This document shows, piece by piece, positions 25,528 to 31,976 of a stretch of DNA of 64,000 nucleotides. Made by a program: the position numbers and the translations under genes. Numbering within the stretch: the stretch's first letter is position 1; every line of letters begins with the position of its first letter. The notes under the pieces were generated by a model. The model saw only the letters and a program-made list of their open reading frames with translations, did no database searches and had not been told where the DNA came from. Source of the DNA: Nocardiopsis sp. JB363 (GTDB taxonomy: Bacteria; Actinomycetota; Actinomycetes; Streptosporangiales; Streptosporangiaceae); the NCBI RefSeq assembly GCF_900143625.1, contig NZ_FRFF01000167.1, forward strand, positions 1 to 64,000, in the 5' to 3' direction.

Positions 25528-25884
25528 GCGTGCGCGCTCCTCCGCCACGTGGTGACCCGGCCGCTTCCTCGGGCGCGCATCACGCGGTGCGTGCCGGGGC
25601 CTCGGCCGCTGAATCAGAGAACATGCAACACCCACGGGTACGCACGCACAAGGGGAAAAGCCACACGACCCGTACTTCACACCCGTAACGGACGAGGGGG
25701 CCGGCACGGGACACCCGTCCACGGTGCCCCACACCGACCCTTCGCGCGCCTTCGGCGCGAGAACAGCCTACGGAACCCGATCCGGTGGTCGATTCGGACC
25801 CCTGAAGCGGCACCTTTATGACGTAGATTGCCCGATTTGCCCCTTGGTAGCTTGGCGTCCATTCGTCGAGCACGAAAGCAGACC
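25528..25884. other. Gene-free interval (357 nt)
   Basis: This divergent interval lies between the zinc-ribbon gene and the MATE remnant. It includes a less GC-rich block around 25817-25860 with TAGCTT at about 25849 as a possible -10 for the MATE gene. I see no RNA structure or gene. Confidence 0.5.
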
Positions 25885-26896
25885 ATGTCCCCCTCGCCCG
25901 ATGACCATGGTTCCCCCGGCACGCCGGCCCAGGAGAACGTCGCCCCTCGCCCCTTCTCCGCACTGAGCAGGGACATCGCGGCCAAGACGTTCCCGCTGTA
26001 TCTGTCGATGATCGCCGGCGTGGTCGGCACCCTGGTCACCGCCGCCGTCCTGGGCCACGCCGGCACCGCCTCCCTGGCCGCCTACGCGATGACCGTCGCC
26101 GTGTTCAACCCGGCCGTCATGGTCGTCCAAGGCGCGCTACGCGGCACCATGCCGTTCGTCGCCCCGAGCGGTGACGACCCCGGAACGCTCGAAACCACCT
26201 TCCGCGACGCGATGTGGCTGGCCCTGTGCGCCGGAGCCCTGGGCGGCTTGGCGGTGACCGCCGTCCCCGTCCTGTCCACGCTCATCGGCGTTCCCGAGGC
26301 GACCGTCGCCGCTTTCGGACCCTTCCCCTACCTGATGGCCCTCACCCTGGTGGTCGTCTCGTTCCAGACCTCGGCCACCACGTTGCTGATCGCCCTGGGC
26401 CGCTCCAAGGAGGCCCTGTGGGTGGGCCTGGTCAACACCGGTTCCTCGATCGTGCTCATCCCGACGCTGGTCCTGGGCCCCGGTCCGCTGCCCGCCCTGG
26501 GCATGACCGGCGCGGGCGTCGCCATGTTCGTCAACGCCGTCGCGGCCCTGACCACCGCACACCTGCTGTTGCGTCGCCGCACCGTTCTGGCCGGGCGCCG
26601 GGTCGGCCTGGGCCGGCCCGTCTGGACCACCGTGTGGCGGATGGCCCGGGTCGGGCTGCCCATGGGGGCCACCATGCTGATCAAGTTCGGTGTGCTGGGC
26701 CTGCTGGCGGTGGCCGCGGCGACCACCGGAGTGGCCGACGCCGCCGCGCACCAGATCATGGTCACCCTGGCCACGTTCGTGTTCCTGCCGGCCACGGCGG
26801 TGGGGCAGGCGACCGTACCGTTCATGGCCCGGGCCGCCTCCGACGCCGACCGACACGGGTACCGAGAGGTACGCCGTTCCCTGCTGGCCGGGGCTC
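25885..26896 (+). pseudogene. MATE-family efflux transporter, N-terminal part only
   Basis: About 337 residues of a MATE transporter, from FPLYLSMIAGVVGTLVTAAVLGHAG through PATAVGQATVPFMAR to RRSLLAG, covering roughly the first nine membrane segments. The reading then runs into unrelated sequence at about 26896 and stops at 26922. The missing C-terminal part is found on the opposite strand at 27050-27304. An intact gene would be about 440 residues. The ATG at 25885 is the likely original start; one at 25828 is also in frame. Confidence 0.82.
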
Positions 26897-27040
26897 CACC
26901 ATGCAGGAGACCCAGTCCCTGACCTCGGTGGAGTCGTCGACGCTCGCCACCATCCGAAGGCGGATCTCCTCGATCTCCTCGGTGTGCTTGCGCGCGATCG
27001 CGCGCACCATACCGGCCTTGGAGCCGAAGTGGTAGGGCCT
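26897..27040 (-). pseudogene. TetR-family repressor, internal fragment (inverted)
   Basis: Reading on minus, YHFGSKAGMVRAIARKH (from 27034) is the end of a TetR helix-turn-helix and the start of helix 4, continuing to RDWVSCMV at 26897. The first 35-40 residues of the DNA-binding domain are missing at the 27040 side. The effector domain is missing at the 26897 side, where the MATE fragment begins. The continuation of the protein is found on plus from about 29143. Confidence 0.75.
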
Positions 27041-29103: not shown

Positions 29104-29544
29104 ATGAACGTTCACGCACACCGATGTGACCGCGCACACGAACAGACGAAACCCCTCGCCCGGCACCTCGCCGATCTGGGCACGCCCTCCTGGTACGCGA
29201 GGTTCACCGTCCAGGTGATGAGCGACCTCTCCCTGCGCGAGCTCGTGAGCCGAGAGGCCCTCGACTGTTCCTCCCTCGTCCGAGCGGGGGAAGCGCTGCG
29301 CGCGTGCCTGCCCGACCTTCCCGACGAGGTCCGCGCCGAACGCCAGGACATGGCGCGGCAACTCATGCTCTTGACGTTGGCGCGGCGCGAGCGTGCGCTG
29401 AGCGAGGGGACGGACACACGCCCGGACTCCTGGAACCGCACCGCCGTCGGGCTCACCGACGCCCTCACCGGGCTCTGGCTCGCGCCCGTCACCGAGGTCC
29501 CGGGACCGGCCGGGCCGGAGGTCGCGCGTTCCGCGCACTCCTGA
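29104..29544 (+). pseudogene. TetR-family repressor, C-terminal domain fragment
   Basis: From about 29143 the frame reads as a TetR effector domain: LARHLADLGTPSWYARFTVQ, LPDLPDEVRAERQDMARQL, ARRERALSEGT and a GLTDALTGLWLAPVT end. No helix-turn-helix precedes it; the matching N-terminal part lies inverted at 26897-27040. The ATG at 29104 gives an open frame of 146 residues, but the first 12 or so do not fit the family. The remnant is therefore probably not functional. Confidence 0.72.
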
Positions 29545-29638
29545 ACACCTGTGCGGTCGCACAAGCCTCGGATAAGGTCTTTCGCGCCCGCCACGCGGGC
29601 GCTAGTGTGCGAACAGGCCCCGCCGCCACGGGGCGCCA

Positions 29639-29710
29639 CGGTGTGTAGCTCAGCAGCAGAGCGCCCGGCTCTTATCCGGGAGGGCGCGGGGGCGGAACCC
29701 GCCGCACCGG
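29639..29710 (+). tRNA. tRNA-like cloverleaf, anticodon CUU, with non-canonical D and T loops
   Basis: All four stems have canonical length and pair fully. Acceptor: 29639-29645 with 29703-29709 (one G-U). D stem: 29648-29651 with 29659-29662. Anticodon stem: 29664-29668 with 29676-29680. T stem: 29686-29690 with 29698-29702. The 7-nt anticodon loop CTCTTAT has U33 and anticodon CTT (Lys). The variable loop has 5 nt. But the T loop is GGCGGAA (no U54, U55 or A58) and the D loop AGCAGCA lacks G19, so the normal elbow cannot form. No CCA is encoded. Two bases after the acceptor stem comes the ATG of the 754-residue gene. It may be a pseudo-tRNA or a cis-acting tRNA mimic rather than a working tRNA. 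Confidence 0.6.
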
Positions 29711-29711
29711 C

Positions 29712-31976
29712 ATGGAACACCGACCTCCCGTCCACGTGGGCCCGGCCTACCCCGCGAGTCGACTCGCCAAGGCGCTGACCACCGCCGCCTCCCACGACGA
29801 CCCGGATGTACGCCGGGCCGCCGAGCGGCGTGCCACGTCCTGGTTGCGCGTCCTGGGCGGCATGGGCGACGGCACCCTGACCATCGGGTCGCGCACCCCC
29901 GTCCGGGACCTGCCCCCGTGGGTCACCCCCGAGGTCGTCCACGGTGGTTTCGCCACCGGCGCGGCCGCCGCCGGTGGCCCGCTGCGCCCGCACGAAATCG
30001 AACTCATCGAACGGCACGGCCTGCGGGCCGACCGCGGTTCGCTGTACTCCCACCACCTGACCGAGACCGGGCTGTCCCACCTGAGCGCGCTGCTCGACAG
30101 CGGCGGCTACGCACTCGACCAGCCCGAACAGGCCGCGCTGCTCACCGTGGTGTGGCTGCTGCGGGCCGGGGACACCGCCGCCGCCCTGCGGCTGCTGAGC
30201 GCCTTGGACCCCTTCGGCGCGTCCCTGTGCCTGACCCCGCGCCCGGCCCCGGTCGTGGACCTGCCCGAGGGTTCGGTCTTTCGTTGGTCGGTGGCGGATG
30301 TGCGCGCCGGGTTGGAGAGGGTCGCCCGTGAGCCCGCCCCTCAGCCGACCGCTCAGCGCGAAGCGCTGCGCGTGTGGAACCCCTTCGCCGACCGGGCCCT
30401 GGCGCACTGGTGGGAGACGGTCGAGAACGGGGTGGTCGACTCGCGCCGTTCCAAGGGCTGGGAGGCGCGCGGCGCCGACCTGCTGGAGGAGTACGGGCGG
30501 CTGGCCGCCGAGCACACCCTGTGTTCCAAGCACCGTGATCCCGAGGAGAACCTGGGGATCCTGCTCGCGGCGCTGCGCGAGACGCTGTCCGAGGAGGGGC
30601 TGGGAGCGCGCCGACGCGGGCTGCTCCGGCACGCGGTGGGCTCCATGGTGGCCAAGCGGGGCGTGCCCGGTTCCGCCGAGCACACCGCCCTGCGCGACGC
30701 CCAGGCCGCGCAGGCGGCGCCGCCTACCCACGACGCGTTCGCGACCGTGCTGCTGGGCCGGTTGTCCGCCTTCGCCGCCAACTCCGGGCTGGCCGACCCC
30801 GAGTCCGTCCTGACGCCGCTCTCCCCCTCGGAGGCACGGGAATTCGACGTACCCGAAGTCACCACGATCCCGACGCCTCTGCGGGAACGAGTGGAACGGG
30901 CGGTCATCGCTCCGTTGGACACCCTGGTGGAACGCGGGCTGATCCCCTCCGCCGAGGTACTGGCCTCGCTGGTGCCCACGTTGGCCGCCACCGCCGAGGC
31001 CGCCGCGATCGATGATCCGGCCCTGAACCGCCTGGTGGCCGCGCACCACCGCGCGTTCGCCGCGCGGCGTTCCCTGCTGTTGCTGAACCTGTCCTCCCAG
31101 GTGCGGCGGGAGGAGCTGCCTTGGGTCCGGGAGGCGGCCCCCCATCACGCCACGGACGACCTGCGCCGGTCCGCGGCCCGAACCCTCATCACCCGTCTGG
31201 GTGAGACGACGCTGACCCGGTTCCCGGGGACCATCACGCCCAATCCGCTGGTGCGCGAGCTCAACGGGCTGGCCGGCACCGCCGGCTCACCGGTGCGGTT
31301 CGTGGAGGAGCTGGCCGCCGACATCTTCATGCGCGACTTCTCCGCCAAGTTCGTGCGGGCCGCCAAGGTGGCTGCGGAACTGCTGAGCGATGGCCTGTAC
31401 ACCCGCTACTACGGGATCGACACCGCCCGGGTGCTCGCCTTGGACGAGAAGCACGATCCGGCCGGCTTCGCCGCCCTGTGCGTCGAACGGGCCCACGACC
31501 CCGAGTGGTCGGTGCCCGGCAACGGCACGATCATCGAGCAGGCCCAGATCCTGACCACGCACAACCTGGCCGCCCTGACCCTGTCCGGCGCGCGCCCCGC
31601 CGACGGGTGGGTCGAGGCCGCGCGCCGGGCGCATCTGCACACGGTGCGTCTGGTCGAGACGCTGCCGAAGGTCTTCGACGTCCTGGCGCACGTGAAGAAC
31701 GCGGCGTTCGCCTGGCGACAGACGGTGTTCCTGCTGTCCCTGTGTCCCTTGGAGGAACAACGAGCGAGCCTGAAGTGGATGTCCCACCTGTCCGAGCGGC
31801 AGCCGGCCCACGTGCGCGATCGGTTGGCCCCGGCGTTGGCCGGACTGCGCGCGGTGGTGGAGGGACGGCCCCCCGATTCCGACGGAGGCACGGTGTTCCT
31901 GGGCTGGACGACCCGGCCGCACTGGATGCCGGCGATCGCTCCGGGGGCGCTACGCTCCCCGCAGGGCCCGACTTGA
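29712..31976 (+). CDS. 754-residue protein of unknown function preceded by a tRNA-like element
   Basis: I do not recognise a family. The sequence is soluble and rich in Ala, Leu, Arg and Glu, predicted mainly helical, without signal peptide, membrane segments or a clear nucleotide-binding motif. The middle contains ENLGILLAALRETLSEEGLG and a stretch of conserved-looking tryptophans and histidines (WWETVENGVVDSRRSKGWE); the C-terminal half has HVKNAAFAWRQTVFLLSLC. The only start in frame before LGGMGDG is the ATG at 29712, because an in-frame TAG sits at 29646. A GGGAGGG (29678-29684) lies 27 nt upstream but would come within about 10 nt if the T arm of the cloverleaf stayed folded. Codon use is like that of the neighbours. 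Confidence 0.75.
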   Translation: MEHRPPVHVGPAYPASRLAKALTTAASHDDPDVRRAAERRATSWLRVLGGMGDGTLTIGSRTPVRDLPPWVTPEVVHGGFATGAAAAGGPLRPHEIELIERHGLRADRGSLYSHHLTETGLSHLSALLDSGGYALDQPEQAALLTVVWLLRAGDTAAALRLLSALDPFGASLCLTPRPAPVVDLPEGSVFRWSVADVRAGLERVAREPAPQPTAQREALRVWNPFADRALAHWWETVENGVVDSRRSKGWEARGADLLEEYGRLAAEHTLCSKHRDPEENLGILLAALRETLSEEGLGARRRGLLRHAVGSMVAKRGVPGSAEHTALRDAQAAQAAPPTHDAFATVLLGRLSAFAANSGLADPESVLTPLSPSEAREFDVPEVTTIPTPLRERVERAVIAPLDTLVERGLIPSAEVLASLVPTLAATAEAAAIDDPALNRLVAAHHRAFAARRSLLLLNLSSQVRREELPWVREAAPHHATDDLRRSAARTLITRLGETTLTRFPGTITPNPLVRELNGLAGTAGSPVRFVEELAADIFMRDFSAKFVRAAKVAAELLSDGLYTRYYGIDTARVLALDEKHDPAGFAALCVERAHDPEWSVPGNGTIIEQAQILTTHNLAALTLSGARPADGWVEAARRAHLHTVRLVETLPKVFDVLAHVKNAAFAWRQTVFLLSLCPLEEQRASLKWMSHLSERQPAHVRDRLAPALAGLRAVVEGRPPDSDGGTVFLGWTTRPHWMPAIAPGALRSPQGPT

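Follow-up and report, generated by a model that had tools for sequence, protein, structure and literature searches.

It is nearly certain that a module of tRNA-like RNA and protein exists in actinobacteria. At 95 of the 102 examined loci encoding homologues of a 754-residue protein from Nocardiopsis sp. JB363, one to three tRNA-like elements (124 in total) lie directly 5' of the gene. With a probability of roughly 0.5, we read this module as one in which the tRNA-like part is excised from the transcript, a nearly leaderless mRNA is left behind, and the RNA serves as a partner of the protein in trans. The window, i.e., the 64,000-nt stretch of Nocardiopsis DNA analyzed here, carries one such element and its gene (Table 1).

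A tRNA-like element in the window

ARAGORN called a tRNA-Lys(CUU) at positions 29639 to 29711, and the Rfam tRNA model (RF00005) matched positions 29639 to 29710 at 49.5 bits (gathering score, 29). This was the second-lowest score among the 56 tRNA matches in this 7.07-Mb genome. Both calls, together with stems of 7, 4, 5, and 5 bp and a variable loop of AGGGC, agree with a first-pass annotation of this DNA, which had described a tRNA-Lys(CUU)-like cloverleaf set against the ATG at 29712. The minimum-energy fold of the window's lone sequence differs from the cloverleaf (z score, -1.28), and the case for the cloverleaf therefore rests on comparison. Under a covariance model of the family, built from 61 elements of which the window element is one, this element scored 93.3 bits, and no ordinary tRNA in its genome exceeded 63.5 bits. 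The genome also has ordinary tRNA-Lys genes (two CUU and one UUU). The cloverleaf at 29639 to 29710 is real, and it is not a tRNA-Lys.

Other classes of tRNA-related RNA were not found. RF00005, and no T-box model, reached its Rfam threshold in the window, and it was the sole Rfam match to positions 29500 to 29800 at E values up to 1. For tmRNA, there was neither an ARAGORN call nor an Rfam match in the window.

Table 1. Features of the tRNA-like element and its partner gene in the window, with three further tRNAs of the same genome
Feature	Position	Strand	Basis or remark
Candidate -10 promoter box TAGTGT	29603..29608	+	sequence; 36 nt 5' of the tRNA-like element
tRNA-like RNA, nucleotides 1 to 73	29639..29710	+	ARAGORN, Rfam, family comparison
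Acceptor stem of tRNA-like RNA	29639-29645 with 29703-29709	+	
D stem of tRNA-like RNA	29648-29651 with 29659-29662	+	
Anticodon stem of tRNA-like RNA	29664-29668 with 29676-29680	+	
Anticodon loop CTCTTAT	29669..29675	+	C32 and U33 fixed; 34 to 38 variable
T stem of tRNA-like RNA	29686-29690 with 29698-29702	+	
T loop GGCGGAA	29691..29697	+	main-lineage form, GGCRGNN
G73 of tRNA-like RNA	29710	+	
Encoded C74	29711..29711	+	seen in 124/124 family elements
754-residue partner protein gene, ATG at 29712	29712..31976	+	mostly helical
Short-arm leucine-anticodon tRNAs	L096 (G000:C11:51277-51350), L103 (G000:C126:45693-45766), L106:498-572 (G000:C64)		

Stem covariation and the tertiary elbow

The family falls into a main lineage (114 elements) and a second lineage (8 loci and 10 elements: L142, L143, L144, L145, L146, L148, L150, and L057). 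Across 60 distinct elements, standard pairs were found in 99.5% of 1,256 pair cells and in 100% of the cells of the acceptor (7 bp) and T (5 bp) stems. When the partners were slid by 1 to 3 columns as a control, at most 47.8% of cells were paired. Two-sided changes occurred at 11 of the 21 pairs, in 113 cells (a count of sequences, not of independent events). These changes, and the presence of the element at 95 of 102 loci, bear out the first-pass proposal that a tRNA mimic is conserved beside homologues of the 754-residue protein. A decaying copy of a tRNA-Lys gene, which the same annotation had raised as the alternative, was not seen.

The elbow had initially been taken as lost. Among the 124 elements, positions 54 and 58 are G-G in 106, T-A in 15 (10 from the second lineage and 5 from the main lineage), and another combination in 3; positions 18 and 55 are A-G in 110, G-T in 9, and unassigned or other in 5. 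The T loop does not start with TT in 114 elements, including that of the window, and starts with TTC in 10. C56 is kept in 113/114 main-lineage and 10/10 second-lineage elements. Because positions 54/58 and 18/55 change together, the elbow is better read as rebuilt than as lost, and it looks remodeled in the main lineage, as predicted from these co-changing sequence positions. The 18/55 change falls on a single deep split between the lineages and may have happened only once. The D loop had also been said to lack G19. This is not clearly so, as A18-G19 occurs together with G55 in 110/124 elements when placed by D-loop position.

Variability of the anticodon loop

The 106 seven-nucleotide anticodon loops of the main lineage all have C32, and 105 have U33. 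Positions 34 to 38 of these loops take 39 forms, with 23 different anticodons, and four of the loops carry anticodons that would read stop codons (two amber and two opal). CTT occurs in only 3 of the 106, which speaks against the earlier suggestion that the RNA senses lysyl-tRNA or its synthetase. Position 37 is a pyrimidine (T or C) in 20 of the 106, the window element itself having a seven-nucleotide loop with a purine at 37, and loops of 3 to 6 nt are found in 12 of all 124 elements. Among the positions compared (D loop not included), entropy is highest at 35 and 36, followed by 59, 37, and 34.

The loop varies among close relatives as well as within loci. For instance, the window's CTCTTAT stands against CTCTAGC and CTTCGGA in two close relatives whose compared body differs by 0 to 2%, and all loops differ from one another within 20 of the 21 multi-element loci. 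We compared 15 disjoint sister pairs with seven-nucleotide loops and a fourfold-site difference of ≤0.35, drawn from 63 full genes. The loop differed at 22 of 75 positions, compared with 15.7 expected from fourfold sites (P = 0.055), and the compared body, which leaves out the D loop and the variable loop, differed at 28 of 780 positions. From these sequence comparisons, the loop appears to change at about the neutral rate or faster, roughly eight times the rate of the body, and diversifying selection on it is possible. The loop might be largely unconstrained; some constraint is indicated by the bias toward C or T at position 34 (99/106) and by the recurrence of particular loops.

Linkage of the RNA to one protein gene

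One element was found at 74 loci, two at 13, and three at 8. The seven loci of 102 that lack an element (L033, L034, L151, L177, L179, L180, and L196) are partial gene matches; L033 retains an N-terminal remnant, and L196 is within a 668-residue open frame matched only over residues 499 to 747. Among the 60 loci that were not used in building the covariance model, 53 matched it, and the other 7 were again partial gene matches. It is important to note how these counts were made. Strain duplicates were taken out of the 95 loci where noticed. Weak second matches in G253, G288, and G290, the G1156 piece on C527, and L152 were left out of the RNA counts, and false parses at L011, L041, L042, L052, L055, L057, L059, and L063 were excluded by hand. 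The total of 124 leaves out a 25-bit match in L016 and includes a 37-bit match in L020, and alignment A2 was made without L020's second, degenerate element and without L011, which is a duplicate.

We also searched genomes with exact patterns for the element. Matches were found in 16 of 40 Nocardiopsis genomes (17 places) and in 23 of 199 genomes of a second genus, taken as Streptomyces (23 places), and every place was at the gene. No match was found in the 17 and 169 gene-less genomes of the two genera, respectively. Since the patterns hit 16 of the 23 Nocardiopsis genomes and 23 of the 30 second-genus genomes that carry the gene, divergent orphans could escape them. After removal of gene-overlapping frames at 21 loci, the widest neighbor family was present at 8 loci, two of these outside the genus, and no neighbor family was common to more than 3 loci outside the genus. 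Thus, the shared unit is the RNA and one protein. In the window, upstream neighbors at 29104 to 29541 and 25828 to 26919, which match a TetR-type C-terminal domain and a MatE-type transporter, lie outside the module. Two plasmid records (L060 and L062) skip one locus-tag number at the element, suggesting a RefSeq RNA gene there; the gene table used for these records omits RNA genes.

RNA ends, start codons, and putative promoters

C74 is encoded in every element, including 29 that do not adjoin the gene's start codon, and nucleotide 73 is G in 109/114 main-lineage and T in 9/10 second-lineage elements. In 84 of the 87 main-lineage loci the start codon lies 1 to 3 nt past nucleotide 73, as ATG in 82, as GTG in one, and as a decayed GTG/TTG in one. 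Of the other three loci, one is decayed and two are from Curtobacterium; in the Curtobacterium loci the first in-frame ATG lies 11 to 13 nt past nucleotide 73 (one record annotates the start there) and a second ATG is preceded by AGGGGAA.

An in-frame TAG at the base of the window element had been thought to prevent any other start from bypassing the structure. The TAG is present, but it is the ordinary U8-A9-G10 of the element and is in frame in only 18 of the 78 adjacent main-lineage elements that contain it. Similarly, the AGG of the variable loop had been tied to the start codon, but it is also found in 25 of the 29 elements away from a start.

Ahead of the first element, a TANNNT motif starts at a distance of 13 to 24 nt in 78 of 95 loci, compared with a mean of 6 after shuffling, and at -36 or -37 in a few loci, the window among them. 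Judged by these motifs, transcription appears to begin shortly before the tRNA-like RNA. Where the RNA and the gene abut, there is no room for a second promoter, and we place both on the same transcript.

The second lineage

In the second lineage the T loop is canonical, CCA is encoded in 4 of 10 elements, and 4 of 10 have six-nucleotide anticodon loops. By visual inspection, the gene begins with GTG or TTG, preceded by a Shine-Dalgarno-like sequence. This lineage may represent the ancestral state.

A separate observation concerns the tRNAs of the window's genome. Bacterial tRNA-Leu usually has a long variable arm. Three tRNAs of this genome with the leucine anticodons UAG, CAA, and UAA are without one, and the UAG leucine-anticodon tRNA was found in 40/40 Nocardiopsis genomes searched.

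Distribution and character of the protein

The closest named relatives of the 754-residue protein are from Nocardiopsis listeri (87 to 88% identity). The gene was found in 23 of 40 Nocardiopsis genomes (fragments counted), 53 of 298 genomes of a family sample that includes Nocardiopsis, 28 of 394 genomes of a class sample, and 30 of 199 genomes of the second genus, which was taken as Streptomyces because the element and the protein's N-terminus are common with named Streptomyces plasmid loci. There was a single occurrence in another class of the phylum (G523), and six plasmid records of Streptomyces, Embleya, and Curtobacterium also carry the gene. The distribution across actinobacteria is thus patchy, and several copies are fragments. 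Searches of viral contigs and phage records turned up no relatives. Fragmentary copies (L174, L175, L176, L178, L181, L032, and L195) in several cases have an intact-looking element upstream.

The predicted structure is mostly helical (mean pLDDT, 85), and many residues are invariant across 35 aligned members, which indicates that the protein is under strong constraint. Searches of Pfam and other sequence libraries gave no convincing family match, and structure searches with the protein model returned only helical proteins, none of them significant, with no convincing fold match and no clear match to the Ro fold. Eight Pfam families were listed at E values up to 1 for 26 members, and the TROVE domain was not one of them. 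We found no recognized RNA-binding domain in the protein, could name no catalytic site in it, and obtained no match to it in the defense library PADLOC.

Discussion

In our preferred reading, one to three dedicated tRNA-like RNAs and one conserved helical protein would be expressed from one transcript that starts shortly 5' of the first RNA. Excision of the tRNA-like RNA by RNase P and tRNase Z, or through cleavage inside the CCA, would leave an mRNA that starts ~3 nt or less from its AUG, to be translated as a leaderless message. Once freed, the RNA would be the protein's partner in trans. Its variable anticodon loop would contact external molecules, the most plausible being anticodon-cleaving nucleases and other RNAs. 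The role is perhaps that of a tRNase sensor or decoy. A role in trans is favored because at the 8 second-lineage and 2 Curtobacterium loci the RNA is retained even though translation of the gene begins farther along. According to an excerpt of a study of Streptomyces coelicolor (PMC4681348), most CCA-encoding tRNAs in that species are cut between the Cs, tRNase Z is present, and 264 mRNAs have leaders of <10 nt. Several points count against this reading. RNase P, tRNase Z, or the CCA-adding enzyme may reject the unusual T loop. The mycobacterial tests of leaderless translation described in PMC4633059 used mRNAs whose first nucleotides were the start codon itself, and the mRNA proposed here would carry 1 to 3 nt more. 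The protein has no recognized RNA-binding domain, and the loop might simply be unconstrained.

The cloverleaf could instead remain in the mRNA, and the adjacent start codon could stay hidden until the structure is opened, and GGAGGG exposed, by a ligand or by a cut in the anticodon loop. The close fit between nucleotide 73 and the start codon in 84 of 87 main-lineage loci makes this gating conceivable there, and in the window GGAGGG (29679 to 29684) runs from the anticodon stem into the variable loop, and the T arm could serve as its spacer. As a general function it does not hold, because distant homologues keep the RNA and start downstream behind their own Shine-Dalgarno-like site, and because the 29 elements of tandem loci do not adjoin the gene's start codon and yet mostly retain AGG. 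With the separate Shine-Dalgarno-like sites (read by eye) at the two Curtobacterium and eight second-lineage loci, and an anticodon that varies, we regard a gate in cis as unlikely. It is no more probable that the elements are decoys, i.e., expendable tRNA copies that are cut by, or resist, the anticodon nucleases of phages, rivals, or toxin-antitoxin systems while the protein senses the state of the RNA. The concentration of entropy at positions 35 and 36 (position 59 ranking third with the D loop left out), the different loops within 20 of 21 multi-element loci, the patchy spread, and the broken gene copies all fit such a role, and part of one report (PMC10264068) proposes that phage tRNAs escape host anticodon nucleases through loop mutations. 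On the other hand, no neighbor gene is linked outside the genus and no defense-library match was found, the excess over fourfold sites is marginal (P = 0.055), and independent drift would also give different loops within a locus. Host loops are also not closely copied: position 37 is a pyrimidine in 20/106, and the anticodon UCG is absent among the tRNAs of the window's genome. Similarly doubtful is an undescribed actinobacterial conflict system in which the helical protein would present small arrays of tRNA-shaped RNAs, their anticodon loops all different and quick to change, as baits for, or readers of, anticodon nucleases or target RNAs, excision again making the mRNA leaderless.

More conventional explanations fare worse. 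That these are ordinary decoding tRNAs sharing a transcript with the gene by chance is highly improbable. ARAGORN and Rfam do call tRNAs, and the second lineage has a canonical elbow and a partly encoded CCA. However, an ordinary tRNA would not be expected to have loops of 3 to 6 nt (12/124), a pyrimidine at 37 (20/106), a stop anticodon (4/106), or a T loop that does not start with TT (114/124), and here anticodons differ between near relatives and the RNAs are linked to one protein family. A decaying copy of an ordinary tRNA-Lys gene, suggested by the ARAGORN label Lys(CUU), is refuted by the comparative data, with its compensatory changes, family features at 95 loci, and a best ordinary tRNA of the genome that falls 30 bits lower under the family model; we consider it to have almost no chance of being correct.

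A tRNA scaffold maintained through compensatory changes, altered in its elbow, freed from the genetic code in its anticodon, and linked to one protein in distant actinobacteria would be a new use of tRNA. It offers a testable case of a tRNA-like RNA outside translation and a possible bacterial form of tRNA punctuation that yields leaderless mRNA. It may also represent a novel defense or tRNase sensor. The RNAs of such modules may now be annotated as odd tRNAs with arbitrary anticodons. We found no description, in the openly licensed literature, of an association between such RNAs and one protein, and the two-part system looks undescribed.

Several known systems share part of this design. In mitochondrial tRNA punctuation, tRNAs are cut from the transcript, and leaderless mRNAs with a start codon at or near the 5' end would result; here, one to three specialized tRNA-like RNAs precede a single gene and would be cut out. 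Bacterial Y RNAs (YrlA) are tRNA-like RNAs that associate with Ro/Rsr, a helical partner protein, whereas no TROVE domain was found in the protein described here, and its RNA folds as a complete tRNA cloverleaf whose anticodon loop varies. T-box riboswitches, which read tRNA and are not themselves cloverleaves, and tRNA-mimic operators such as Escherichia coli thrS, which imitate one fixed tRNA identity, likewise place a tRNA-related RNA before a gene, but unlike in such operators, the anticodon varies here. Type III toxin-antitoxin systems, in which an RNA antitoxin inhibits a ToxN-type endonuclease, were also considered; PADLOC gave no match to the protein, and Pfam none that was convincing. 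The phage tRNAs with altered loops are phage borne and, in the relevant part of PMC10264068, proposed to be nuclease resistant, whereas the protein of this family has no viral relative among the records searched. The closest described RNAs are the allo-tRNAs and irregular tRNA polycistrons from soil, which, in the section of PMC7609411 that discusses Mukai et al. (2017), have diverse anticodons and are in some cases polycistronic, with one pseudogene overlapping an ORF and the function of some unexplained. The allo-tRNAs, reported there from Clostridia, Proteobacteria, and Acidobacteria, have an 8/4 or 9/3 acceptor domain and serine identity elements. As far as that section describes them, they resemble the family presented here in tRNA shape and in very diverse anticodons and differ from it in that the actinobacterial RNAs have the 7/5 form, an elbow that looks remodeled in the main lineage, and an association with one protein family.
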